Virus record (IMG/VR): IMGVR_UViG_3300024264_000175
Location: 1 to 23,387 of that record
Source of the DNA: a virus
Strand: one strand, 5' to 3'
Length of the DNA: 23,387 nt
The notes beneath the pieces were generated by a model that saw only the letters and a program-made list of their open reading frames with translations, searched no databases and had not been told where the DNA came from. Positions 2 through 22,351 of this stretch are shown one piece after another. The position numbers and the translations under genes are program-made. Every line of letters begins with the position of its first letter. Position 1 is the stretch's first letter.

Positions 2-430
2 ACAGGGAGTGTTACATTTGGTAATATAAGTCCTTCAGCAGTAACAACAACAGGTAATGTAGGTATTCAAGACACTAATCCACCACAAAAACTTCATATA
101 GACGAAGTAGCTGGTATGGATGTAGGCACAGGAACTTCTTCAGCAACAGCACAATTTACACTAGACACTTTTGCAGCAGCTACATTTAGAACTGCTAAGT
201 ACTTAGTACAAGTACATAATACAACAGACACAGATTTTCAAGCAATAGAAATTTTATTATTCCATGATGGTACAGATGTATACTTAACACAGTACGCATC
301 TATATTTGAAAATGGAGCACAGGCAGCATTTGATGCAGACTTAGTATCAGGTAATATAAGGTTAAGAGTAACGCCAGCAAGTACAGATAGTATGGCATTT
401 AAATTTATAAGGACAACAATAGAGGTATAA
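2..430 (+). CDS. C-terminal part of a virion (tail fibre/appendage-type) protein, truncated at the window edge
   Basis: The reading frame is open from base 2, so the gene starts outside the window; 142 residues are visible. An in-frame ATG at 116 exists, but the open codons before it encode a plausible continuation. That upstream part contains GNVGIQDTNPPQKLHI, which resembles the 'VGIGTTNPxxKLHV' motif common in phage tail fibres and S74-peptidase-bearing appendages. The rest is Thr/Ala-rich with alternating hydrophobic residues, as expected of a beta-rich structural domain, and shows no enzymatic motif. The stop at 428-430 lies one base before the ATG of the next small appendage-type gene, suggesting one structural operon. 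The virion role is inferred from the motif and the neighbours. Confidence 0.6.
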   Translation, partial: TGSVTFGNISPSAVTTTGNVGIQDTNPPQKLHIDEVAGMDVGTGTSSATAQFTLDTFAAATFRTAKYLVQVHNTTDTDFQAIEILLFHDGTDVYLTQYASIFENGAQAAFDADLVSGNIRLRVTPASTDSMAFKFIRTTIEV

Positions 431-431
431 C

Positions 432-653
432 ATGGGACAAAAATTAGACTTTAATATCGAGGACGCAGGATTAAAAATTGATGGTACTGATGTAATTGAT
501 GCTAGTAGAAACTTTGAGGGAGCAGTAGCGACAAATAAGATTGGTTCAGGAATCATAGCAAAAGCTAGATTGCCTTTTACAATAACAACAACAGCACCAA
601 CAAATACTACTGGAACGAGTGACGGTCATGTATGGTTTGTTTATTCGAGTTAA
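432..653 (+). CDS. Small 73-aa appendage-type structural protein
   Basis: The ATG at 432 is preceded by AGAGG at 421-425, a good ribosome binding site that overlaps the end of the upstream gene. The 73-residue product has no signal peptide, membrane segment or Cys. Its C-terminal third carries TTTAPTNTTGTSDGHVWFVY, which resembles the 'TISTSxPSGGSDGDxWF' segment found in many phage tail-fibre and neck-appendage proteins. Residues 10-30 (EDAGLKIDGTDVIDASRNFE) look like a short beta-rich head domain. It lies between two structural-type genes, with 3 bases before the next start. A small virion decoration or fibre-assembly protein is the best inference; no specific family is claimed. Confidence 0.55.
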   Translation: MGQKLDFNIEDAGLKIDGTDVIDASRNFEGAVATNKIGSGIIAKARLPFTITTTAPTNTTGTSDGHVWFVYSS

Positions 654-656
654 GAT

Positions 657-3600
657 ATGGCAATATATGTTAATGACAGTGGTACACTACGTCAGATATC
701 CTTCCTTGCAGTCAATGATGGCGGAACAATACGAAGGGTCAATGAAGTATATGTAAATGATAACAGTAATTTAGCTGGCCCATTCTCTGCGGTTCATGAA
801 ACTGCTAGAAACACAGCAACTGTTAGAACTACAAACACAAATGACATTGTTACAACATTCAATACAACTACAGCTTTTGATACAGACGTAGCTACAGTAT
901 CGGGGTATAATACAAGCAGAGTAACAGAGTTTAATACATCTAGAAGTACTGAAACTAATTTAGTAACTACATTTGCAACTACTACCGTTTTTGCTACAAC
1001 AGTAAATACAACTACTGATTTTACTACTACCACTGCTTTCAATACAACCACAACGTTTAACACAACAATTACTACTGTTACAGATTTTACAACTACAACG
1101 CAGTTTAATACAACAACAACGTTTAATACAAACACAACTACAACTACTGATTTTACTACTACCACTGCGTTTAATACAACCACAACATTTAACACAACAA
1201 TTGCAACCACTACAGTATTTAGTACTGTTACTGCTTTTAATACTACTACAACGTATAATACTACACAGGGTACAACTACAGCATTTAATACAACTACTAC
1301 TTTTACCACAACTACAACATTTGATACTAATACTAGTACAACTACAGCGTTTAATACAACTACTACTTTTACCACAACAACAACATTTAATACAAGTAAA
1401 AGCACAACTACAGCATTTAATACAACTACTACTTTTGAAACTACAACAGTATTTGAGACTAGTTTAAGTACAACTACAGCGTATAATACAACCACTACCT
1501 TTAGTACAACGACAACGTTTAATACAACACTTACGACTACAACTGATTTTACTACTACTACAACATTTGAGACTAATTTAACTACAACAACTGCGTATGA
1601 AACTACTACTACTTTTACAACATTCTTTGATACAGTAATATCTACAAGTAGACTTAGTGAGTTTACTAACAATACAGCTTTTGCTACAACAAGAACAACA
1701 ACATTTGGTACTGTTACTGCTTATGCAGATAACACTTCATTTGCTACAACAAGAACAACAACATTCGGTACTGTCACTGCTTATGCAGACAATACATCAT
1801 TTGCCACAACGAGAACAACAACATTTGGTACTGTTACTGCTTATGCAGACAACACATCATTTGCTACTACAAGAGATACAACGTATGATACTGTATCTAC
1901 TTTCGTAGTAAGTACAAGTTATAATACTACTCAAAATACTAATACGAGTAGAAACACTGCATTGGCAGCTGTAAATACTAATTATACTACTACTCAAAAT
2001 ACTAATACAAGTAGGAATACTGCGCTGGCCGCTGTAAATACTTCATATGATACTACTCAAAGTACTAATACTGTAAGAAACACTGCGTTAGCTGCTGTAA
2101 ATACTTCATATAATACTACTCAAAGTACAAATACTTCTAGAAACACTGCGCTGGCCGCTGTAAATACTACATATGATACTACTCAAAGTACAAATACGAG
2201 TAGAAACACTGCGTTAGCTGCTGTAAATACATCATATACTACTACTCAAAGTACAAATACGAGTAGAAACACTGCATTGGCAGCTGTAAATACTAATACT
2301 GTAAGAAACACAAATACATCAAGAAGTACAAGCTTCACGAATAGTACATCTTACAATACAGCTTTTGCTACTAATACGTCAAGAAGTACAGGGTTTACTA
2401 ATAGTACATCTTACAATACAGCTTTTGCTACTAATACATCAAGAAGTACAGGGTTTACAAATAGTACATCTTACAATACAGCTTTCGCTACTAATACATC
2501 AAGAACATCAACGTTTACAAACAGCACAACAAGAAATACATCGTTTGGAACAAATACATCATACGCAACTTCATTTGCTACTAATACAGCTAGAGCTACA
2601 GGTTTTACTGCAAACACAAGTAGAAACACTAATACAGCTAGAGGCACAAATACTTCTAGAAGTACTGGCTTTACAAATAACACCTCTAGAGTAACAACCT
2701 TTGCAGCTAATACAGGCTTTACGAACAATACCACAAGAGGTACAAATACATCAAGAAGTACAGGATTTACAAATAATACTAACACTGCGAGAACAACAGC
2801 ATACACAGATAATACAGGATTTACAAATAACACCGCTAGAAATACAAATACTGCGAGAAATACTAATACTGTAAGAGCAAGTGGTTCATTTGCCTCTACA
2901 TCTTTTTTAACAAATACTGCAAGAACAACAACAACTGCTTTTACCTACACTTACTTTAGTTATAGTGGTGGTTATGTACAGGTAGTTGCGGAGTCTACTA
3001 CTTACCCAGTAAGTAATACTGATACAGCATTCCAGAACAATACTTCTAGAAACACAAACACAAGTTGGAATACTGGTTTTACAAACAGTACAGGGTTTAC
3101 AAATAGTACATCATTTGCTACTAACACAGCAAGAGGTACAAATACGTCAAGAAGTACAGGGTTTACTAATAGTACAAATACTGCAAGAACAACAACATAC
3201 ACAGATAATACATCATTTGCTACTAATACAGCTAGAGGTACAAATACTTCTAGAAGTACATCATTTGCTACTAACACAGCAAGAACAACAGCATACACAG
3301 ATAATACAGGCTTTACTAATGCAACTTCATTTGGAACTAATACATCAAGAAGTACATCATTTACAAATAATACAACAAGACAAACAGAAGATTTAGCAGC
3401 TACAACAAGAAGTACAGCTTATAATACTGCTACAAGTAGACTAACTGCGTATACAGATAATACAACTAGGGGTACAACAAGAAATACAAACACTGCGAGA
3501 ACAACAGCATACACAGATAATACCTCTCAAGCTACAACAAGAAATACTGCTACAAGTAGAATATCAACATACACAGATAATACTTCTCAAGCTACAACAA

Positions 3601-5234
3601 GAAATACTAACACAGCAAGAGTAACAGCATACGTAGATAGTACAGGATTTACAAACTCAACAAATACAAGTAGATTAACTGGTTATGTAGATAATACATC
3701 ATTTGCTACAACAAGAAGTACCAATACGAGTATAACAACAACCTTTGCAGCTAATACATCATTTGCTACAAGTAGAAGTACCAACACAAGTATAACAACA
3801 ACCTTTGCAGCTAATACATCATTTGCTACAACAAGAAATACCAATACGAGTATAAGTACAGGGTTTACAAATAATACATCATTTGCTACAACAAGAAGTA
3901 CAAATACGAGTATAACAACATCTTATGTAGATGCCACAGCATTTACTACAAATAGAAGTACTAATACAAGTATAACAACCTCTTATGTAGATGCTACATC
4001 ATTTACCACTACACGAAATACTAATACAAGTAGAGGAACAGGTACAACTCAATCAACTAGTTATACTACTACACAGAGTACTAATACAAGTAGAACAAGT
4101 AATACTGCACAGTCAACCAGTTATACTACTACACAGAGTACTAATACAAGTAGAACAAGTAATACTGCACAGTCAACCAGTTATACTACTACACAAAGTA
4201 CTAATACAAGTAGAACAAGTAATACTGCACAGTCAACCAGTTATACTACGTCACAAACTACTAATACTAGCAGAACTACTACGTTTGAAACAGCGTATCA
4301 AACTTCTAGGTTATCCTCAAGAAGTACAGGTACAAGCAGAGCTACAACTACAATATTTAACACAGCTAGAGGAACTGTTACAGACAGAGGTACAACCACA
4401 ACATTTAATACTACTAGACTATCAGATACAACAAGAACAACTGGAACAAGCAGAGCAACAGACACAACATTTAATACTTCCAGAGTATCAGATACAACAA
4501 GAGCAACAGAAACTAGTAGAGCTACAAGTACAGTATTTAATACAACAAGAGCAACAGATACAACAAGAGCAACTATTACAAGTAGAGCAACTACAACAAC
4601 ATATGCTACTACTCAAGGAACTCTTACAACTAGAAGCACAGGTACAAGTAAAAGTACTACAACTACGTTCAATACTAATACTACGACAGGTACAAGTAAA
4701 AATACACTTACTTCAAAAAGTACAATATCTACATTCAATACTTCTAGATTATCAGAAACAACTAGGGGTACAGTTACAGTCAGAGATACAGTCTCTACAT
4801 TTGAGACGTCTAGAGCATCCCTCACAAGTAGAGGAACCGTTACTTCACAGAATACAGTATCTACCTTTAATACATCAAGAGCTTCGTTAACAAGTAGAGG
4901 TACAGAAACTAGTAGAAGTACTACATCTACATTCAATACTTCAAGGACTACAGACACGACTAGAACTACTGTATTTGCAACTTCAACAGTATTTAATACA
5001 ACTAGAACTACAACGTATCCAACAGGTAGAACTACTACCACTACGATTGAAACAAGTAGACTATCAGATACAACTAGAACAACGACACCTACAACTACAA
5101 CTACTTTTGATACTTCAACTGTAGTATTTGAAAGAATTACTGCATCAGCAGCTGGAACAATCTTCGACACCGAAGTATCTAGTGCAGATGCGTTTAGCGC
5201 GTCCTACTGGGATGGTAATCAGTGGACAGAATAA
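657..5234 (+). CDS. Giant 1525-aa Thr/Asn/Ser/Arg-rich tandem-repeat protein, probable fibrous virion protein
   Basis: One uninterrupted frame. Residues 1-45 form a head with three related strands (YVNDSGT, AVNDGGT, YVNDNSN), a pattern seen in marine phage structural proteins. The body is almost wholly repeats: 22-residue units with aromatics at positions 0, 6 and 12 (nt 1020-1547), 20-residue units (1680-1919), 21-residue units (1920-2297), more 20-residue units, then 22-residue units with one aromatic and three Arg at six-residue steps (4404-4931). One non-repetitive island sits at residues 761-785. The last ~35 residues (to DGNQWTE) are non-repetitive and may be a tip or trimerisation segment. 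No Cys, transmembrane helix or catalytic motif is evident. Thr or Ser on alternate positions suggests stacked beta-strands. A long tail fibre or whisker is the likely role, inferred from the structural neighbours and fibrous composition; an adhesin-like or scaffold role is not excluded. Synonymous codon variation between copies indicates selection on the amino-acid pattern. Confidence 0.7.
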   Translation: MAIYVNDSGTLRQISFLAVNDGGTIRRVNEVYVNDNSNLAGPFSAVHETARNTATVRTTNTNDIVTTFNTTTAFDTDVATVSGYNTSRVTEFNTSRSTETNLVTTFATTTVFATTVNTTTDFTTTTAFNTTTTFNTTITTVTDFTTTTQFNTTTTFNTNTTTTTDFTTTTAFNTTTTFNTTIATTTVFSTVTAFNTTTTYNTTQGTTTAFNTTTTFTTTTTFDTNTSTTTAFNTTTTFTTTTTFNTSKSTTTAFNTTTTFETTTVFETSLSTTTAYNTTTTFSTTTTFNTTLTTTTDFTTTTTFETNLTTTTAYETTTTFTTFFDTVISTSRLSEFTNNTAFATTRTTTFGTVTAYADNTSFATTRTTTFGTVTAYADNTSFATTRTTTFGTVTAYADNTSFATTRDTTYDTVSTFVVSTSYNTTQNTNTSRNTALAAVNTNYTTTQNTNTSRNTALAAVNTSYDTTQSTNTVRNTALAAVNTSYNTTQSTNTSRNTALAAVNTTYDTTQSTNTSRNTALAAVNTSYTTTQSTNTSRNTALAAVNTNTVRNTNTSRSTSFTNSTSYNTAFATNTSRSTGFTNSTSYNTAFATNTSRSTGFTNSTSYNTAFATNTSRTSTFTNSTTRNTSFGTNTSYATSFATNTARATGFTANTSRNTNTARGTNTSRSTGFTNNTSRVTTFAANTGFTNNTTRGTNTSRSTGFTNNTNTARTTAYTDNTGFTNNTARNTNTARNTNTVRASGSFASTSFLTNTARTTTTAFTYTYFSYSGGYVQVVAESTTYPVSNTDTAFQNNTSRNTNTSWNTGFTNSTGFTNSTSFATNTARGTNTSRSTGFTNSTNTARTTTYTDNTSFATNTARGTNTSRSTSFATNTARTTAYTDNTGFTNATSFGTNTSRSTSFTNNTTRQTEDLAATTRSTAYNTATSRLTAYTDNTTRGTTRNTNTARTTAYTDNTSQATTRNTATSRISTYTDNTSQATTRNTNTARVTAYVDSTGFTNSTNTSRLTGYVDNTSFATTRSTNTSITTTFAANTSFATSRSTNTSITTTFAANTSFATTRNTNTSISTGFTNNTSFATTRSTNTSITTSYVDATAFTTNRSTNTSITTSYVDATSFTTTRNTNTSRGTGTTQSTSYTTTQSTNTSRTSNTAQSTSYTTTQSTNTSRTSNTAQSTSYTTTQSTNTSRTSNTAQSTSYTTSQTTNTSRTTTFETAYQTSRLSSRSTGTSRATTTIFNTARGTVTDRGTTTTFNTTRLSDTTRTTGTSRATDTTFNTSRVSDTTRATETSRATSTVFNTTRATDTTRATITSRATTTTYATTQGTLTTRSTGTSKSTTTTFNTNTTTGTSKNTLTSKSTISTFNTSRLSETTRGTVTVRDTVSTFETSRASLTSRGTVTSQNTVSTFNTSRASLTSRGTETSRSTTSTFNTSRTTDTTRTTVFATSTVFNTTRTTTYPTGRTTTTTIETSRLSDTTRTTTPTTTTTFDTSTVVFERITASAAGTIFDTEVSSADAFSASYWDGNQWTE
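1020..1547 (+). repeat. 66-bp tandem array, 8 copies (22-aa unit, F-x5-F-x5-F-x9)
   Basis: Phe/Tyr codons that open each unit fall at 1020, 1086, 1152, 1218, 1284, 1350, 1416, 1482 and 1548, exactly 66 bp apart. Within units, aromatics recur at offsets 6 and 12, with Thr filling most other positions (for example FNTTTTFTTTTTFDTNTSTT). The copies differ by synonymous changes, so the array is old or kept by selection on the protein. After 1548 the register breaks because one six-residue sub-unit is missing. Confidence 0.9.
1680..1919 (+). repeat. 60-bp tandem array, 4 copies (20-aa unit)
   Basis: Units start at 1680, 1740, 1800 and 1860. The first three encode FATTRTTTFGTVTAYADNTS with only a few base differences; the fourth is diverged (FATTRDTTYDTVSTF...). 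The array ends exactly where the next, 63-bp, array begins. Confidence 0.9.
1920..2297 (+). repeat. 63-bp tandem array, 6 copies (21-aa unit)
   Basis: Units start at 1920, 1983, 2046, 2109, 2172 and 2235 and encode variants of YxTTQxTNTSRNTALAAVNT. The core NTALAAVNT is the most hydrophobic part of the whole repeat body. Codons for the same residues vary between copies (gca/gcg, ttg/ctg/tta), showing divergence after duplication. Confidence 0.9.
2313..2492 (+). repeat. 60-bp tandem array, 3 copies (20-aa unit)
   Basis: Units start at 2313, 2373 and 2433 and encode NTSRSTxFTNSTSYNTAFAT. Units 2 and 3 differ by only a few bases. Degenerate relatives (NTSR, NTAR, GFTNNT) continue irregularly to about 3680. 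Confidence 0.85.
3702..4001 (+). repeat. 60-bp tandem array, 5 copies (20-aa unit)
   Basis: Units start at 3702, 3762, 3822, 3882 and 3942, each encoding a variant of FATTRSTNTSITTTFAANTS. The second half of the unit alternates between TFAANTS, GFTNNTS and SYVDATS types, so it is a mosaic rather than a simple expansion. Confidence 0.85.
4050..4259 (+). repeat. 60-bp tandem array, 3 full copies plus a partial one, nearly identical in DNA
   Basis: Units start at 4050, 4110, 4170 and 4230 and encode QSTSYTTTQSTNTSRTSNTA. Bases 4081-4140 and 4141-4200 differ at one position only, and the first 49 bases of 4201-4260 match as well. This is the least diverged and presumably youngest duplication in the gene. 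Confidence 0.9.
4404..4931 (+). repeat. 66-bp tandem array, 8 copies (22-aa unit, aromatic plus three Arg/Lys at six-residue steps)
   Basis: Aromatic codons fall at 4404, 4470, 4536, 4602, 4668, 4734, 4800, 4866 and 4932, exactly 66 bp apart. The typical unit is FNTSRVSDTTRATETSRATS: aromatic at 0, then Arg (or Lys, Gln or Thr) at 4, 10 and 16. Thr or Ser occupies most other even positions. It has the same period and copy number as the array at 1020-1547 but different side-chain chemistry. Confidence 0.9.
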
Positions 5235-5255
5235 TAACTAACCAAAGGAAAAACA

Positions 5256-5423
5256 ATGAAATTACAAGATAAGGATATTACTCCTAGATTTGTTAATGAT
5301 AAATTAGAAAGCTTAGGACAAGCTCTTTTTGACTCAATACATCAATTTGAAGAAAGATTAAAAGAACAAGAGGTACATATAGTAGACCTTAAAAAACAAA
5401 TTAGAGATTTAAAAAATGGGTAA
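5256..5423 (+). CDS. Small 55-aa coiled-coil protein
   Basis: The ATG at 5256 follows AAAGGA (5244-5249) at good spacing, 21 bases after the repeat-protein stop. The product is 55 residues, charged, without Cys, Trp or a membrane segment. Residues 13-54 have a heptad-like pattern of hydrophobics (L17, L20, L24, I28, F31, L35, V40, V43, L45, I49, L52) typical of a short coiled coil. Its stop (5421-5423) overlaps the start of the next gene by 8 bases, implying translational coupling. It could be a small virion or fibre-assembly (chaperone-like) protein; no family is recognised. The evidence for it being real is the ribosome binding site, the perfect fit between neighbours and the protein-like composition. 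Confidence 0.65.
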   Translation: MKLQDKDITPRFVNDKLESLGQALFDSIHQFEERLKEQEVHIVDLKKQIRDLKNG

Positions 5424-6294
5424 ATTAGTCCCTCTCTCTAATGTAGAGGAGTTAGGAGATTTTAGTACTCATATATACAAGTCAGGATCTTGCACTAGAC
5501 CTAAAGAAGATTTAGATGAGTTATCTAGAATGAAGAAAGAATTAATACCCGAACAACGAGAAGGTATTAATTTTGATTATGATTTGTGGTTTAACACTAA
5601 CGAAATAAGAACTATTAGAAGTTGGTTATATACAGATTTTTTGGGTGCAGGTATATATCTAAGAGTAAATTCTGTACTCATAAATGATAAATTGATGCGT
5701 GTAATTGCCGATTCAGATATAGAAATAGATACTGCTAGAATAGATAAGATTAAAAATAATTTAAGAAATAAATATCATTTAAAATATACTGAAGAAGAAT
5801 ATGATAAAGTTGTATTTCCTCCAGGAACAAACTTACTAACTAAACCAACTTGTGTACATTGGGGTAGAATAAAACAATGTGTAGACGAGGGGTATGTAAT
5901 AAAACCACATCCAATTACCACTGATTTAATGGTTGCTAAATTTAAAAGAAAGTTCGGAAAAGATAAAGTTTTAGATAAAAGAAGTGGAGGCATGGAATTA
6001 CTTATGAAGTGTTCTAATGTAGCAACAATGCCTAATAGTGAAATGGGACTTATCGCACTCTTACTTAAGAAAAACTTAAGAATGATAAGCTACTCAAAAA
6101 AAGAAAGAGAAAAAAGTTTATTAACATATGAAAGTATTTATCATGCTTGTGGAAGTACAAATGGGTACAAAGCAATCGAAAAAATATTCTCAGCAAGGAA
6201 CTCAGGAATGATATTTTCATTCGATGAGGATGCACAACAAAGACTAGATTTATATATAAATAATTTTTGGGATTATAGGAAACATACAAAATGA
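5416..6294 (+). CDS. GT-B-type glycosyltransferase resembling capsule polysaccharide transferases
   Basis: The product is 292 residues. The C-terminal half looks like the nucleotide-sugar-binding Rossmann domain of GT-B surface-polysaccharide enzymes. VIKPHP at 161-166 matches the HP motif, and PNSEMGLIALLLKKN at 206-220 matches the 'S/N-S/T-x-G-x-x-AL' segment of KpsS/KpsC-like and CDP-glycerol-polymer transferases. VTCVHWGR-like sequence near 146-151 precedes these. No signal peptide or membrane helix is visible, so it would act in the cytoplasm. The donor may be a CMP- or CDP-linked sugar by analogy, which is inference. The start overlaps the upstream 55-aa gene by 8 bases, and its TGA overlaps the next ATG (ATGA), so three genes form one translational unit behind the fibre gene. 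The alternative is a generic phage glycosyltransferase of unknown donor. Confidence 0.55.
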   Translation: MGKLVPLSNVEELGDFSTHIYKSGSCTRPKEDLDELSRMKKELIPEQREGINFDYDLWFNTNEIRTIRSWLYTDFLGAGIYLRVNSVLINDKLMRVIADSDIEIDTARIDKIKNNLRNKYHLKYTEEEYDKVVFPPGTNLLTKPTCVHWGRIKQCVDEGYVIKPHPITTDLMVAKFKRKFGKDKVLDKRSGGMELLMKCSNVATMPNSEMGLIALLLKKNLRMISYSKKEREKSLLTYESIYHACGSTNGYKAIEKIFSARNSGMIFSFDEDAQQRLDLYINNFWDYRKHTK

Positions 6295-7211
6295 TTGAAT
6301 TAGTACATACATGGAAGCCAGAGTGGAGTTATTTTACTATCGCTTCTTTAATTGATAAAGACGAAGAATATCGTCTACATCTCTATGTGGAGGAAGAACA
6401 CTATGCCGACTTACCAATTAATTGGATATTTGACAATATTCCAAATGTAAGGATATATGAAGCATATTGGAAAAAAGATTATGCATCTAGAGCTATTCAA
6501 CATCTTAGATTACATTGGAAAGATAAAGGGTTACACAAAAGAATACTTTATGCAGGTGGCAATAGAATATTTTTAAAGAGTGGATGGGCAGATGAAATAC
6601 CAAAAGAATCTTTTTTCCAAACAAAACTATCTCACTTATCTAGAAAGAAAGTATTTGTTGGACACAAGCAATTTGCATCTTATTATGGAATACTAGATTT
6701 TGCTAAAGCAGACATGCCTGCAAACTGGGACACTGACTTTTTTATGTTGAATTACGACTTACTCAAAGATCTAAATGATAATGAATTATTTTATTCAAGA
6801 GGATTCTATAATGACTATGATAGCAGAGTACTAGCTACAACAAATCAGTTTTTCTTTACAAAATTACACGAAAAAGAACATGGAGTACTTCCTAGATATA
6901 TGAATGGTAAAAGTGACTTATTAATACAATGGGATGCACTACCGTCAAAAGAATATATAAATTATAATGTGATGCTAAGAAAATCGTGGAGTATAGCACT
7001 ACCGACAAAGTCACTATCAAATGGGTATGCTAAAGTAAGTACAGGAACTCAACTATCAACTCCTTGGGAGTTATATGCTCAACTTATACCTAAAATTCCA
7101 GTTAACTTTAGGAATGCACGAGTATGTGAAAACTTATCATATAAAACAAATAGACAAAAACAAACTGCAAGAAAATTAATAGAAGTTGGATATAGATTAG
7201 GAAAACTTTAA
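6291..7211 (+). CDS. Unassigned 306-aa protein, possibly a glycosyltransferase
   Basis: The ATG at 6291 lies in an ATGA overlap with the preceding glycosyltransferase. The opening residues (MIELVHTWKPEWSYFTIASL) followed by LHLYVEEE suggest an alpha/beta N-terminal fold. RILYAGGNRIFLKSGW at about 84-99 sits where GT-A enzymes have their 'LYLDxDxxFL' metal motif, but here no DxD is present, so a catalytic role is doubtful. It is rich in aromatic residues and Lys, has one Cys, and shows no signal peptide or membrane helix. Position suggests a part in the same glycan pathway, as enzyme or partner. The 3' end overlaps the opposing GT29 gene by 15 bases. It is best called hypothetical; the glycosyltransferase idea rests on context and weak fold resemblance. 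Confidence 0.5.
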   Translation: MIELVHTWKPEWSYFTIASLIDKDEEYRLHLYVEEEHYADLPINWIFDNIPNVRIYEAYWKKDYASRAIQHLRLHWKDKGLHKRILYAGGNRIFLKSGWADEIPKESFFQTKLSHLSRKKVFVGHKQFASYYGILDFAKADMPANWDTDFFMLNYDLLKDLNDNELFYSRGFYNDYDSRVLATTNQFFFTKLHEKEHGVLPRYMNGKSDLLIQWDALPSKEYINYNVMLRKSWSIALPTKSLSNGYAKVSTGTQLSTPWELYAQLIPKIPVNFRNARVCENLSYKTNRQKQTARKLIEVGYRLGKL

Positions 7212-7859
7212 CATTTCGTCATTTAGGTCGGAAAGAATTTTCCAATGTAGTTTACCTTTTTGTTCCCACTTTTTAACTAGTTTAGCTTCATTAGGATTGT
7301 GAGGACTTTTACTTGTTGAATTTACTGGCATATGCCAACTTGATGGATAATCTCCTCCTGTTTTAATTGGTAACTTCTTAGCAAAGAAATCAAAACCAAC
7401 CAAAGTTATACTCTTACATTTGCACTTCTGCAAGAAAAACAATATACCAAGAAAACCTGCACTCGGTCTACCCCCACCAGGTGCTACTCCGTTCTTTGCT
7501 CCCACCAATTCAAATATTTTCATTAACTCCTCATCATTAAACATATCGTTATCATGTCCCCAAGGAGGCGGACCTCTATGGTCTGGGTATTTGTCGAGGT
7601 GTATACGACAGCGATTAAACAGAGGATAAGCGTCTTTAAACGCAGGATGAAAGTTCATTCGTAACCAGCCCGTAACCCATATGTCTGTACGTTTTCCTAT
7701 ATGTTGTTGCAATTTATCTTCAGGCACTCCTTTTCCAAATCGCACAACTGTATCAAAACTCTCTATGTATTCTCCCAAATCATACTGTAGAATTTCGACT
7801 GAATTTCCCACAAGTACTATGTTTTTATTTTCTGTTAAATCTTGTAAAGTTCTACCCAT
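7197..7859 (-). CDS. GT29 (sialyltransferase-like) glycosyltransferase
   Basis: Motifs (start at 7859) match the GT29 family. NKNIVLVGNS, with VGNS at 17-20, then SFDTVVRF at 34-41, corresponds to sialylmotif L. GGGRPSAGFLG (128-138) followed by CKSITLVGFDFF (148-159) matches motif S, and SPHNPNE at 185-191 provides the His and Glu of motif VS. The family moves sialic acid from CMP-sialic acid to a glycan; bacterial and viral relatives often have unknown donors. There is no membrane anchor, unlike eukaryotic members. I chose ATG 7859 because GGAG lies 11 bases upstream and the protein then begins just before the motif. The frame is open to TTG 7898 and has another ATG at 7880, but both overlap the upstream gene more. 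The 3' end overlaps the opposing plus-strand gene by 15 bases. Confidence 0.75.
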   Translation of the reverse strand: MGRTLQDLTENKNIVLVGNSVEILQYDLGEYIESFDTVVRFGKGVPEDKLQQHIGKRTDIWVTGWLRMNFHPAFKDAYPLFNRCRIHLDKYPDHRGPPPWGHDNDMFNDEELMKIFELVGAKNGVAPGGGRPSAGFLGILFFLQKCKCKSITLVGFDFFAKKLPIKTGGDYPSSWHMPVNSTSKSPHNPNEAKLVKKWEQKGKLHWKILSDLNDEMLKFS

Positions 7860-8464
7860 TTTGCTGTCATCTCCGAACATTCGTTTATATTTAACCAAGG
7901 CCCACCATCTGTAAAGTGTAGTGCTTTTGGTTTCTTGAATTTGTAATAATTTACCATTGCATTATATTGCGCAGGAATTCCCCCTATACTATCTGCCCAT
8001 CGTAACTCATGCAATGCACCCGCTGGGGCTTGGTTTATATAATCATAAGTAAGTTCTGTACACTTAGGATTATTAAAAAGCATAAGACTAGACCAGTACT
8101 TTCTAGGGTAACTATGATTTTTCTTGCCTTTCATTTTTTTACTTTGAACGAGAAAATTAGGATGTTTTACCACATGAACTGTATGTTCATCGGAAAAATA
8201 ATCCATAACTTCTTCAGGGTCACAGAGCCATAAGAAATCTCCATCACAGAATAAAGCTTCGCCTTCGTAGTCACAGAGCTGTGGTACTAGAAAACGAGTA
8301 AAGGCAAACTCTGTACTCTCGTTCTGAAAAGGACGAGTATATTCGGATATTTCCGATTTTTTGAGTGGTATGATTTCATGACTAGAATTGTAACGAAGTA
8401 TGCTTTTTTTGCATACATCAAACATTTCAGGGTATGCTGATTCATACCCAATAAAAATTTTCAT
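7835..8464 (-). CDS. GT-A glycosyltransferase, GT8-like
   Basis: The product is 209 residues. It opens with MKIFIGYES, a typical first strand of small GT-A enzymes. FTRFLVPQL (55-63) and EALFCDGDFLWLCDPEEV (69-86) match the 'R(F)xxP.l......l.lDxDxlfl.dl.el' signature of GT8-like transferases, with D74-G75-D76 as the metal- and nucleotide-sugar-binding DxD. KYWSSLMLFNNP further on fits the 'x-S-x-x-M-x-F-N' acceptor-side segment. No membrane segment, so cytoplasmic. The ATG at 8464 sits in an ATGA overlap with the GT2-like gene upstream, and the 3' end overlaps the GT29 gene, so three glycosyltransferases are translationally linked. Donor and acceptor cannot be read from sequence. Confidence 0.7.
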   Translation of the reverse strand: MKIFIGYESAYPEMFDVCKKSILRYNSSHEIIPLKKSEISEYTRPFQNESTEFAFTRFLVPQLCDYEGEALFCDGDFLWLCDPEEVMDYFSDEHTVHVVKHPNFLVQSKKMKGKKNHSYPRKYWSSLMLFNNPKCTELTYDYINQAPAGALHELRWADSIGGIPAQYNAMVNYYKFKKPKALHFTDGGPWLNINECSEMTAKWVELYKI

Positions 8465-18933: not shown

Positions 18934-20213
18934 AGTATTTTTACCTCGTAATCTTGTTTTAAATAGTAACCCATTCTAGCGTTTGCTTGACGAGTTGCTG
19001 TTTTGCCTTTTAAATGTATATCCACAATAATAGGCTGTGGTTTGCCTTCTACTTTTCGTATAACTCTACCTACTAACTGTGTGAGTAAAGGTTCATTATT
19101 TACTGGTGTACCTAGTACTAAACAACTTAATTCATTTAGTGATATGCCTTCGGAGAAAATAGACTGTGTACCGAATAATATATTCTTTCCTTCTTGTTTT
19201 ATTAATTCCATTGTATCTTCTCTTTCTTTGAAATCCATATCTCCTGTAATTGATACTGCATTATCCCCTACTAATCTAGCACATGCTTTTAGAAACATTA
19301 CTCTATCAGAAACAACCAATACGTTATGTCCTAAAGCTGCATACTTAGAGGCTATCATTGCAACACTATGTACATACTCTTCTTTGTATGCTAAGTCATT
19401 GATTCTTTCTGCCCATGGTGTAAATGAACCATCTAGAAATCTAATATCTGATTTGATTATATGTATACAGGGAATAAGATAATTTTCTTTAGGCGGTTTA
19501 AAAACATTATGTCCAAAGTAGTCTCTAAAAACTACATGCCTTCCATCTTTTCTCTCTAATGTTCCTGTCAACCCTACCTTATATCTAGAAGGCATTTCAT
19601 CTATAATTCTAGTAAAAGTAGGACTACTAACATGATGCATTTCATCTAAAATCAGTGTTCCGAATTCTTGTTTTATGTCGTCCATTTTTCGGTATAAACT
19701 CTGAATATTCCCAATAACTATAGGAGCGTCAATATTAAAGTCTCCACTACCTATTCTGCCTGGTTTAATTCCAAAGCATTTTTCTACTTCTTTTTCCCAC
19801 TGATTACGCAAGTTAGTAGTATGAGTAACAACTAATGTTTTCTGACCAAGCTTCGCTGCGATAGCTAAACCTGTAAATGTCTTTCCCCAACTTACCCAAG
19901 CGTTAACTATTGCGTTGTCTTCAATCTCATCATAAACCCTCTTTTGGCTTGGTCGTAAATCAAACTTAAATTTTGCATGTTCTATAGGCGAGGTAACTCT
20001 CTTATCGATTATTTCGTAATCATCTGGTATTAAATCTATTCTTCCCATAGGTATAGAAATCAAACCTTCTTTTATAAAACGAATTGTTTTAAAAACTAAA
20101 GGAGGGTCAGAAGGTATACGTGGAGCAATAGTATAAGTCAACTCTTTTTCGATAGAATTATGTAACTCTTTAGTTACACTCATATATATTCTGTTACTTA
20201 GAACTGCTTTCAT
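18930..20213 (-). CDS. UvsW-like superfamily 2 DNA helicase
   Basis: The product is 427 residues. Helicase motifs in order: Q-like LRPSQKRVYDEI (86-97), a non-standard motif I NAWVSWGKT (104-112) in place of GxGKT, TLVVTHTTNL (motif Ia), LDEMHH (189-194, motif II), VGLTGTLERKDGR (motif III region), VVSDRV (motif IV), FGTQSIFSEGIS (motif V) and QLVGRVIRK (379-387, motif VI, R383 and R386). T4 UvsW, which branch-migrates and rewinds recombination intermediates, also has an atypical motif I, so this is probably still an ATPase. ATG 20213 overlaps the cytidylyltransferase gene by 20 bases. The role fits the gp46/47 and ssDNA-binding protein genes just downstream. Confidence 0.85.
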   Translation of the reverse strand: MKAVLSNRIYMSVTKELHNSIEKELTYTIAPRIPSDPPLVFKTIRFIKEGLISIPMGRIDLIPDDYEIIDKRVTSPIEHAKFKFDLRPSQKRVYDEIEDNAIVNAWVSWGKTFTGLAIAAKLGQKTLVVTHTTNLRNQWEKEVEKCFGIKPGRIGSGDFNIDAPIVIGNIQSLYRKMDDIKQEFGTLILDEMHHVSSPTFTRIIDEMPSRYKVGLTGTLERKDGRHVVFRDYFGHNVFKPPKENYLIPCIHIIKSDIRFLDGSFTPWAERINDLAYKEEYVHSVAMIASKYAALGHNVLVVSDRVMFLKACARLVGDNAVSITGDMDFKEREDTMELIKQEGKNILFGTQSIFSEGISLNELSCLVLGTPVNNEPLLTQLVGRVIRKVEGKPQPIIVDIHLKGKTATRQANARMGYYLKQDYEVKIL

Positions 20214-20610
20214 TTATCTTGTTCCTCAAACTCGTACTAGAAAAAGAATGAGCTCTACTAGTGTAAAAAATCTCATGTAATCCTTTTCCTGTAAAATGTT
20301 TGTCTGTCCAATCTTCTCCAACAAATCGAAGGTGTATTGGTGTTGCTTCTAGTAAATCTAAAAGACTTTGTTCTGTATCATAGGGTATAATCTCGTCAAT
20401 ATACTTTACTGCTCTTAGCTGTATATATCTTTCAAACACTGATTGTACAGGTTGATTCTTCTCTTGTCTATCAATACTGGGGTCTGTTTGTAGTCCTACT
20501 ATTAAATGAGTACAGTTATCCTTTGCTTCTTTGAGCATTACTATATGCCCTGCATGTAGCAAATCAAATGCTCCACAAGTAAATCCTATTGTTTTGTCCA
20601 TTTTCGCCAT
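20194..20610 (-). CDS. HxGH nucleotidyltransferase, glycerol-3-phosphate/sugar cytidylyltransferase-like
   Basis: The product is 138 residues, the usual size for TagD/RfaE-C-type enzymes. GFTCGAFDLLHAGHI (9-23) contains H19-x-G-H22, the phosphate-binding signature, and SSTSLR (124-129) matches the ISSTxxR motif that holds the triphosphate. R61 in ERYIQLRAV corresponds to the conserved mid-protein Arg. The family joins CTP (or ATP) to a phosphorylated alcohol or sugar, making CDP-glycerol, CDP-ethanolamine or ADP-heptose-type donors. The substrate cannot be told here. It overlaps the asparagine synthase-like gene upstream and the helicase downstream, and may supply an activated donor to the glycosyltransferases. 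A second ATG at residue 4 (20601) would give a shorter overlap. Confidence 0.8.
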   Translation of the reverse strand: MAKMDKTIGFTCGAFDLLHAGHIVMLKEAKDNCTHLIVGLQTDPSIDRQEKNQPVQSVFERYIQLRAVKYIDEIIPYDTEQSLLDLLEATPIHLRFVGEDWTDKHFTGKGLHEIFYTSRAHSFSSTSLRNKINESSSK

Positions 20611-22100
20611 ATTTTTTGATTGTGTATTTGATTCATCTCAGAGTTGTTATCCCAAGGACTAGACCATCCACATTTTTTCTTTCTATCTTGTATATGTTTA
20701 GGTATATAATCTTTCATTATTACTCTTAGTAAGTACTTATAAGTGCCTGTAGCGTAGTCTTTATGTAGTTTCATTTTAGTTTTTCCCTCAAATTCATACA
20801 CATATCTAGCAAATTCTTGAGTCAAAAATACAGGTCTACTTTCCATACCAAATAACCCGCAAGTCTGGTCAGCGGCTAAAACATTATTTTCACTTGTTAT
20901 CATTAAGTCCATAAATAAAGTAGAATTGAATCCGTCTTTATCTCCTTTAAATATTTCTTTACGAACCCAAGACTGATTCTCACAAAAGCCTTTCATCCAT
21001 TTAGCATTGTACCCTTTTGTAAATCTTTTGGAGTGATGTTGATACCCACTAAAAAACTCGTCTGCACTATCCCCTGTCAGTACAACTTTACATCCATCTT
21101 CAGATGCTGCTTTTGCAAGTGCATATCTAGGAGCTCTTCTATTATTATCATTCCATAGATAATTATTTTTCTCCATCCATGCTCTGCCGTACTCATCTCT
21201 TTGTTTTCTAGTTAGAGTTACTACTTTGTAAGGAACATTCCACTCTTTACAAGTCTTTATTGCAAGAGCGGCTTCATTGGCAAATATATCTTGTCTAAAC
21301 TCTACTCCTTTTTCCTCTGAATATGCACAAATATATGCGGTTAAGTCTAGCCCCATATCTTTAACTACACCCAAAGCACAGGTACTGTCTAGTCCTCCAC
21401 TTAAAAATATAGCTGTTTTTTGTTTATTTTTTGCTACTTTTCGTATTCCCTTTACAAGTTCATGTTTAAACTGTTCCTCTACAAAGGGATTATTTTTTAC
21501 TCTATATCCTGACCATAAATTATCACCTCTTTTTAATACACATTTCTTTGTGTCATAATGATAAAGCTGCCCTGGTTCTACTTTTCTTATACCCTTGAAA
21601 GGTGAGTCTGAACCTGACCAAATAGGATTAGATAAAAACTTTTTATTAAGTTCTTCAGGTTCTGCACCAACAAAACTAGCAAGACTTGTACTTACTGATA
21701 TTCCTCCATTGTCGCTTTTTATCCATAAAGGTTTTGCCCCAAAATGGTCTCTAACAATGTCACATATGCCTGTCTTGTAGTCCATAAAACAAAAAGAACC
21801 ATGCCAATTTCCGAACTCTATAAACTTGAAACCATACTTCTCGTAGCCTTCAGCTAGGAATTTAGTATCGTTGGGTATATTAGAGTCATACATTTCTCCA
21901 TTGAATACCATTATGTTGCCCTTCTTAGTTATATAAGGTTGTACCTCATTTTCTCCTGATATGTCTAATAGTACATGCGCAAAAGTTAAATCGTGCATAT
22001 ACCTTATAGTTTCACCACGAGCATCGGGACCTCTAAATCTCTGTGCGTCAATGTATTTATCAGCTAAATTGTTTTCAGTTGTTACAACAAAACCGCACAT
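20586..22100 (-). CDS. Glutamine-hydrolysing asparagine synthase-like amidotransferase
   Basis: The product is 504 residues from ATG 22100. I chose this start because it places the catalytic Cys at residue 2 (MCGFVVTT), as class II glutamine amidotransferases require after Met removal. GGAG lies 9 bases upstream, and the codon overlaps the preceding stop as TAATG; the frame is open farther upstream but that extension is not homologous-looking. RGPDARG (23-29) and FNGEMYD (66-72) belong to the glutaminase domain. SGGLDS (234-239) is the ATP-pyrophosphatase loop, and LTGDSADEFFSGY follows. The complete motif set implies an active enzyme that amidates a carboxylate. Its substrate may be Asp, but phage and polysaccharide-locus members often act on sugars or unknown acids. 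The next gene is a cytidylyltransferase, supporting a biosynthetic role beyond Asn supply (inference). Confidence 0.88.
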   Translation of the reverse strand: MCGFVVTTENNLADKYIDAQRFRGPDARGETIRYMHDLTFAHVLLDISGENEVQPYITKKGNIMVFNGEMYDSNIPNDTKFLAEGYEKYGFKFIEFGNWHGSFCFMDYKTGICDIVRDHFGAKPLWIKSDNGGISVSTSLASFVGAEPEELNKKFLSNPIWSGSDSPFKGIRKVEPGQLYHYDTKKCVLKRGDNLWSGYRVKNNPFVEEQFKHELVKGIRKVAKNKQKTAIFLSGGLDSTCALGVVKDMGLDLTAYICAYSEEKGVEFRQDIFANEAALAIKTCKEWNVPYKVVTLTRKQRDEYGRAWMEKNNYLWNDNNRRAPRYALAKAASEDGCKVVLTGDSADEFFSGYQHHSKRFTKGYNAKWMKGFCENQSWVRKEIFKGDKDGFNSTLFMDLMITSENNVLAADQTCGLFGMESRPVFLTQEFARYVYEFEGKTKMKLHKDYATGTYKYLLRVIMKDYIPKHIQDRKKKCGWSSPWDNNSEMNQIHNQKIWRKWTKQ

Positions 22101-22351
22101 TAATACTTTCTCCAGTCTATAATTGTATCTTCTCTTATGTCTGCCCATTTGCAAAATTCAACATCAAACATAAGTATTCTACCACCTAGTTTGTCTCCGT
22201 CATTTAATGCACGTGCATCCATACCTCTAGTATTTTCAGGTACTAAAGTCATCTCTCTTTCTTTTGTTTCTCCTGTTCTTAAGTCTTCATACTGTACTAG
22301 TACTATTCCTTCTTCCAGTGCTTTTACCATTTTGTCTAAATCTTGCGCCAT
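22100..22351 (-). CDS. Small 83-aa protein, possible DUF2693/SH3-like fold
   Basis: The product is 83 residues. LEEGIVLVQYEDLRTGETKEREMTLVPEN followed by RILMFDVEFCKWADIREDTIIDW reads as five to six beta strands. It resembles the small SH3-like phage family DUF2693, in which a 'xFxKxxGexRxMxxTLxP' segment precedes a 'VWDxexxxWRxfRxdsI' segment. The function of that family is unknown. The ATG (22351) overlaps the upstream gene by 16 bases and the stop overlaps the amidotransferase start by one. The family call is tentative. Confidence 0.55.
   Translation of the reverse strand: MAQDLDKMVKALEEGIVLVQYEDLRTGETKEREMTLVPENTRGMDARALNDGDKLGGRILMFDVEFCKWADIREDTIIDWRKY

Follow-up and report, generated by a model that had tools for sequence, protein, structure and literature searches.

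The described phage protein closest in topology to the one analyzed here is the needle of T4 gp37. In published accounts of the needle, each gp37 chain runs to the tip and then back, with the N- and C-termini both at the knob, and the structure is six-stranded and antiparallel with its tip in the middle of the sequence of that domain (PMC9603124, PMC9659904). The first stem arm is placed at residues 882–931, a length of about 50 (PMC9603124). The topology is like that of the fold proposed below, but the gp37 arm is shorter: about 50 residues as compared to 367–731. The gp37 stem is also rich in HxH motifs, which bind iron, whereas the repeat protein described here has one His in 1525 residues. 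When scored for mirror-complementarity as explained below, gp37 reaches 14.0, which is at the null level, as compared to 42.5–265 for the 25 representatives of the present family that pass. By analogy, the protein may be likened to the gp37 needle in how it would work; membership in the gp37 family is not supported by sequence.

Other known structures share single traits with this protein. Designed and natural beta-hairpins contain cross-strand aromatic:Arg pairs, one or a few of them; here the kind of facing pair is the same, but more than 100 stand in register. Fibers of the Gly_rich_2 (PF21722)/PHROG 863 type have a domain that is found at the mirror center of one relative, L070, and has no match in the protein described here. 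The triple beta-spiral shaft is built from repeats of ~15 residues with a conserved Gly/Pro turn, and the left-handed beta-helix hexapeptide places an aliphatic residue at every sixth position. Both were considered and rejected, the spiral on best periods of 20–22 and 4 Pro in 1525 residues, and the beta-helix on a content of Leu, Ile and Val of 102 in 1525 and on the mirror layout.

The subject of this study is a stretch of viral DNA of 23,387 nucleotides (the window; IMG/VR record IMGVR_UViG_3300024264_000175, positions 1–23,387), which encodes a giant, Thr-rich repeat protein. Its sequence and those of its relatives make it quite likely that this is a tail-fiber-like protein that would run out and back as an antiparallel zipper, with its caps at the base and its tip in mid-sequence.

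The repeat protein and its genomic setting

The neighbors of the repeat gene are tail genes, as judged by PHROG matches in the window and in a related locus, L059. The features of the window that are relevant here are as follows, where S is the sum of the numbers of two facing residues:

2..430, + strand: C-terminal part of a baseplate wedge/tail-fiber connector-like protein (PHROG 967, E 1.5e-08), which runs off the window
432..653, + strand: 73-residue protein directly upstream of the repeat protein, with a 62% identical protein in the same place in L059
657..5234, + strand: giant palindromic Thr-rich repeat protein of 1525 residues (from its ORF, mirror and periodicity)
657..785, + strand: N-terminal cap, residues 1–43, with three VND-type repeats, conserved across clades
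858..2924, + strand: outgoing arm, residues 68–756 (ladder; mirror segments 68–432 with S = 1542 and 550–756 with S = 1548)
1020..1547, + strand: array 1, residues 122–297, 8 x 22, aromatic, facing residues 1420–1245
1920..2297, + strand: six 21-residue repeats (TALAAVNT) with one extra residue each, register +1 at each
2925..3029, + strand: non-repeat center, residues 757–791, between the last facing segments, proposed turn and distal tip
3030..5078, + strand: returning arm, residues 792–1474 (mirror segments, ladder)
3648..3986, + strand: 20-residue repeats, about residues 998–1110, opposite the six 21-residue repeats
4404..4931, + strand: array 2, residues 1250–1425, 8 x 22, Arg/Lys-bearing, partner of array 1
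5124..5231, + strand: C-terminal cap, the conserved final 36 residues, which would meet the N-terminal cap at the base
5416–6294, + strand: downstream gene (PHROG 26179), with tblastn relatives in phage DLP6 and in Caulobacter phages such as Lullwater
7197–7898, − strand: match to glycosyltransferase family 29 (sialyltransferase; PF00777, E 9.4e-07)

The 73-residue protein has no match in PHROGs or Pfam; in L059, tail-fiber families lie upstream of its counterpart. Further along the − strand are what we take, by eye from their motifs, to be a nucleotidyltransferase (20194–20610) and an asparagine-synthase-like amidotransferase (20586–22154). The ribonucleotide reductase of the window has its nearest counterparts in Pelagibacter phages such as HTVC031P (66%); a gp32-like match in Pfam falls below its cut-off. 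Judged by eye, the remainder of the window resembles a section of a T4-like phage genome. Long ORFs also overlap the repeats on the opposite strand and in the remaining + frames (794–1672 (−), 4613–5170 (−), 3991–4890 (+) and others); these seem to be by-products of ACN-rich codons in the repeats and not genes.

The repeat protein consists of 37.5% Thr, 11.5% Ser and 10.6% Asn, and has a single Met. Its two eight-unit, 22-residue arrays are in frame in the ORF and lie exactly where the original prediction had located them. At period 22, the column identity is 0.687 for array 1 and 0.550 for array 2, as compared to maxima of 0.425 and 0.245 in composition shuffles (2000 each), 0.453 and 0.295 in shuffles that preserved odd and even positions (2000 each), and 0.407 and 0.231 at the next-best period among 16–29. 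The chemistry of the units was also correctly described: aromatic residues occupy offsets 0, 6 and 12 of array 1, while array 2 has an aromatic residue at 0 and mostly Arg or Lys at 4, 10 and 16 (Gln or Thr in a few units). Further arrays have periods of 20, 21 and 20 residues in the first half, followed by a mixed zone in mid-protein and by periods of 20 and 20 in the second half. On the period map, these remaining arrays are also arranged mirror-fashion around the middle of the protein.

A mirror axis in the middle of the protein

To locate the axis, each residue was marked as bulky or non-bulky (bulky set FYWRKQILHME, chosen after the spacing was inspected), and the mark at position i was correlated with that at S − i for 240 values of S. 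The best axis of the window protein is S = 1542, with r 0.52. Relative to the caps, the best axis is near-constant in all 38 distinct complete relatives from IMG/VR, although several are nearly identical to each other: its cap-sum is +8 in 33 proteins, +6 in four and +10 in the remaining one, and r ranges from 0.36 to 0.83. The resulting mirror ladder is legible by eye, and local segments of L024 and L028 reach r = 1.0 over long stretches. The match is weak beside the caps, and in L043 and L055 it is also poor in mid-protein. Owing to the periodicity of the arrays, S and S ± 22 do about equally well locally; it is the whole pattern that fixes the overall S. To judge from the sequence, then, the two arrays are matching parts of one mirror image, that is, partners.

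Periods other than 22 (16, 20, 21, 30 and 32) are placed mirror-wise too, and the period map is symmetric around the middle in many of 50 distinct proteins and fragments. Among 39 distinct complete proteins, whose half-lengths range from 383 to 771, 30 have a Thr-poor, non-repeat segment (35 residues long in the window protein) at most 11 residues from the midpoint. The exceptions are L044, L018, L029, L041, L049, L051 and L052, where the Thr minimum is tied or elsewhere, L020, where it is 21.5 residues away, and L065, for which the cap anchor is missing. The center, axis and alignment counts exclude duplicates, fragments with an open end, and L021, whose ORF is part of the wider set below. 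The axis and alignment counts have 38 proteins and not 39, since one more was a duplicate once trimmed to the start Met. The centers are divergent between clades (median identity 0.29), and the caps have median pairwise identities of 0.79 (N-terminal, 120 pairs) and 0.69 (C-terminal), all three values being for 16 representatives with L065 left out.

A mirror could arise by chance from periodicity, and this explanation was rejected using block shuffles and half-swap controls. The complementarity score of the window protein is 136.5, as compared to a mean of 26.9 (SD 6.9, maximum 59.0) in 600 block shuffles and to 46.5 for its best match in the same direction. In five relatives, the antiparallel score is 126–265 and the parallel score 22.5–70.5. 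When halves were swapped between proteins (register shifts not followed), the mean match was 0.57 for a protein's own halves and 0.26 for 272 cross pairs. The own returning half ranked first in 12 of 17 representatives; in the other five (L022, L008, L017, L012 and L023), which resemble each other in layout, the returning half of another protein did better, mostly one from the same clade and, for L012, also those of L028 and L046. In unanchored scans of 126 cross pairs, the median score was 20.5; pairs of similarly laid-out relatives reached as much as 103.5.

Facing residues are complementary

With S = 1542, array 1 (residues 122–297) lies opposite residues 1420–1245, which is array 2 displaced by five residues. 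The facing pairs at offset 0 of array 1 are F:R (4), F:K (2), F:Q (1) and Y:R (1); those at offset 6 are F:R (7) and F:K (1); and those at offset 12 are F:R (6), F:Q (1) and Y:T (1). At offset 16, I, L, Q, T or another residue of array 1 is opposite the aromatic residue of array 2. On this register, the opposite chemistry of the two arrays is complementarity. The original prediction had placed both arrays on one scaffold with different chemistry, and this much stands. The stacked coils of constant rise that it envisaged, with an aromatic end and a charged end, are not supported: the arrays face each other (i opposite 1542 − i), and complementary chemistry is seen in pair after pair on both arms.

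The same complementarity extends to the relatives. Here, a register-following alignment was used that scored only bulky against non-bulky, so that chemistry played no part in finding the register. Per protein, 50–133 positions are bulky on both sides and 18–62 on one side only (38 proteins); the window protein has 127 and 39, L055 has 50 and 51, and L043 has 61 and 57. Pairs were then counted in 17 representatives that share <60% of their 6-mers, with positions before 80 left out. Exactly one residue is aromatic in 1438 of 1514 facing bulky pairs, a descriptive count for which the margins predict 779. The partner of the aromatic residue is Arg or Lys in 1059 of these, Gln, His or Glu in 275 and aliphatic in 104. 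There are 9 aromatic–aromatic pairs (338.5 expected), 67 pairs lack an aromatic residue, and 2 are cation–cation (186.5 expected). Consecutive pairs mostly lie 6 (744) or 4 (539) residues apart, and other spacings are less frequent. Aromatic residues are found on the N-terminal arm in 0.52–0.69 of the pairs in 16 representatives, and L057 leans the other way, at 0.37.

The class of facing residues also changes jointly. Between representatives, base-anchored sites changed class on both sides in 1267 cases, on one side in 78 and on neither in 2896; these counts, like the pair counts above, are descriptive, as the comparisons share sequences and ancestry and are not independent. The remaining positions on the bulky face are 87.3% Thr in the 17 representatives, and the opposite face is made up of 27.5% Thr, 22.6% Ser, 15.8% Asn, 14.7% Ala and 6.4% Gly. 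On that opposite face, Asn is found opposite Asn at 2.26 times the expectation (200 as compared to 88.3; 17 representatives), which is possibly an Asn ladder.

Single-residue bulges and the register

The 21-residue repeats of the TALAAVNT type are one residue longer than the 20-residue repeats that they face. Across six such one-residue bulges, the register of the window protein passes through 0, 1, 2, 3, 4, 5 and 6. In L008, the outgoing arm has six motifs and the returning arm has two, and the register ends at +4. The motif count equals the register shift exactly in 13 of 17 representatives, 9 of which have a net count of zero; the shift of the window protein was taken as +6, before its last 12 residues. 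Motif counts are unequal between the arms in eight representatives, and four of these (the window protein, L022, L008 and L017) fit the bulge rule. In the misfits, the shift predicted and the shift found are 4 and 3 for L012, 1 and 2 for L023, 1 and 0 then −1 for L029, and −3 and −2 then −7 near the center for L053. The main evidence is independent of the bulge rule.

Relatives in viral metagenomes and cultured phages

A search of viral metagenomes, which had been suggested at the outset, was made in IMG/VR with the whole protein and returned 64 distinct loci. A second IMG/VR search, which started from the divergent L065, returned 40 loci, of which 39 were new. Homologues had been expected to keep the 22-residue register, and this held in part: L024, L053 and L043 have other best periods at the base of the outgoing arm. 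The trait common to all 38 complete relatives scanned is the mirror axis.

The collected loci contain 107 Thr-rich ORFs of at least 400 residues, from which 27 representatives were scanned without anchors; a protein passed when its score exceeded twice the maximum of five block shuffles. Twenty-five of the 27 pass. The two that fail are L074 (21.5, null maximum 15.5) and the fragment L075 (16.5, null maximum 13.5). The L074 protein (1855–7374) is long, and its Thr-rich part, which fails the mirror test, may be broken, bulge-rich or differently built.

In this wider set, the caps differ among groups. The N-terminus of L077 is a baseplate wedge domain (PHROG 17744, E 7.6e-132) and the mirror is in the C-terminal part. 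In L070, the Pfam domain Gly_rich_2 spans 539–742, with its middle at 640.5 and the mirror center at 638.5 in the same numbering. The last ~800–1000 residues of L070 and L086 are more Thr-rich sequence, with TDLGAGT/TDSGAGT motifs, that follows the first palindrome; the unanchored mirror scan found no clear second palindrome there.

A palindrome is also present in a cultured phage, Stenotrophomonas phage DLP6, in AMQ65900.1, which is annotated as a baseplate wedge protein. Its best axis is S = 1949. Both sides are bulky at 53 positions, of which 46 have one aromatic residue, and one side only is bulky at 54; its mirror score is 59.5 as compared to 12.5–16.0 in block shuffles. DLP6 is described as a T4-like myovirus with a 144-nm tail (PMC5349666). 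Seven other cultured phages, about 40 kb of each, were scanned for ORFs of at least 300 residues with a Thr-rich stretch, and no palindrome was found: phiM12 has one such ORF and HTVC008M two, none palindromic, and Cr30, Mosig, S-WAM1, ACG-2014d and RHph_I1_18 have none in the ~40 kb scanned.

That the protein would belong to no named family was borne out: the whole protein has no match in PHROGs, in Pfam (E ≤ 0.001) or among PDB sequences (phmmer, E ≤ 10), and a profile search gave no match to PDB sequences at E ≤ 1. Using tblastn with the low-complexity filter on, the whole protein matched none of 50,697 phage records; with the N-terminal cap there were 11 weak records, at E 0.1 or worse, and with the C-terminal cap two 9-residue matches (E 6). 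Pattern searches found no relative among 57 matches in a bacterial and archaeal genome collection, or among 30 matches of the Thr-rich part of DLP6 in viral contigs. A search of the open-access literature found no paper on a threonine-rich, hairpin, palindromic or cation-pi phage fiber.

Discussion

Since the residue-exact mirror is found in 38 of 38 relatives, the chain is proposed to run out and back with both termini at the base. The chain would leave the base as one very long beta-strand, turn at the non-repeat center and return antiparallel, whereupon the N- and C-terminal caps would meet. Facing residues would then be cross-strand neighbors in an antiparallel pair. Their cation-pi and amide-pi contacts, together with the irregular 4/6 spacing, may function as a register code that prevents the strands from sliding. 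Three such chains would probably form a six-stranded needle, as in the gp37 tip, and the center would be the receptor-facing distal tip. An extended strand rises by 0.33 nm per residue. At this rise, the arms of the window protein would measure about 225 nm when fully extended, and those of the 17 representatives, with 367–731 residues, 121–241 nm. AlphaFold2 monomer predictions of the central 381 residues had a mean pLDDT of 36.1 for L024 (alignment of 3 rows) and 29.6 for the window protein (10 rows), too low to be informative. Foldseek, run on the low-confidence L024 model, returned 16 rows at E ≤ 10 (best E 2.5), one of them to fibers of Agrobacterium phage 7-7-1 at E 4.9.

At the level of the pair, a mirror-complementary sequence fits equally well with an antiparallel homodimer, in which extended chains lie head to tail, with i opposite S − i of the other chain and the centers crossing at a two-fold axis. 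We consider this improbable. The non-repeat center is unlike the arms, and in L070 it is a Gly-rich domain of ~200 residues, which suits a tip and not a crossing. Moreover, the palindrome comes after a large N-terminal part in L077, L078 and DLP6 (baseplate wedge by PHROG in L077 and by annotation in DLP6), and because it follows the wedge part in L077 and DLP6, a homodimer would have a baseplate domain at both ends. The stacked coils first proposed, or a beta-solenoid with a 22-residue rung, would account for the exact 22-residue period of both arrays and for their six-residue sub-rhythm, but leave unexplained the mirror-wise placement of the other periods, the near-constant axis in all 38 relatives, and the aromatic:Arg complementarity along the arms; this reading is more improbable still.

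Low complexity, the high Thr content and the low pLDDT of the monomer prediction are what would be expected of a linker, rich in Thr and disordered or mucin-like, with repeats that expanded by slippage. The strict alternation, with 87% Thr on the bulky face, the residue-exact mirror and the joint class changes need a structural constraint, however, so that there is little to recommend such a linker, even less than the solenoid. Least credible, to the point of being negligible, is a mirror that stems from an inverted repeat in the DNA read through in frame. In the window, the reverse-complement identity of mirrored codons shows a small excess (0.353 as compared to 0.324 ± 0.008 when shuffled), but an identity of 35% is far from an inverted repeat, and Thr lies opposite Thr, which reverse-complement codons do not give.

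The out-and-back fiber is, as noted, a topology with a precedent in T4 gp37. What is new is the residue-exact palindrome and a complementary, two-letter code over hundreds of residues, the code being judged new because it is absent from gp37 and unmatched in PHROGs, Pfam and PDB sequences. We think it reasonably probable that these proteins form a new class of fibers whose fold would be set by this base-pair-like code: an aromatic residue would have to meet Arg, Lys or Gln at an irregular spacing of 4 or 6, and single-residue bulges would be tolerated and counted. The class would be a module common to free fibers and to the baseplate wedge proteins of several phage groups, with a receptor-binding tip in mid-sequence, and it would lengthen only by matched insertions in both arms.

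If this is true, pairing partners could be read from the sequence over arms of up to about 730 residues. To our knowledge, pairing partners that are readable residue by residue are otherwise known only from nucleic acids. Register selection in long beta-structures would become directly testable, and the code would provide a template for the design of long fibers. Annotators should then place the receptor-binding tip of such phages in the middle of the gene. For the evolution of the family, the question would be how distant arms keep equal length and complementary chemistry.
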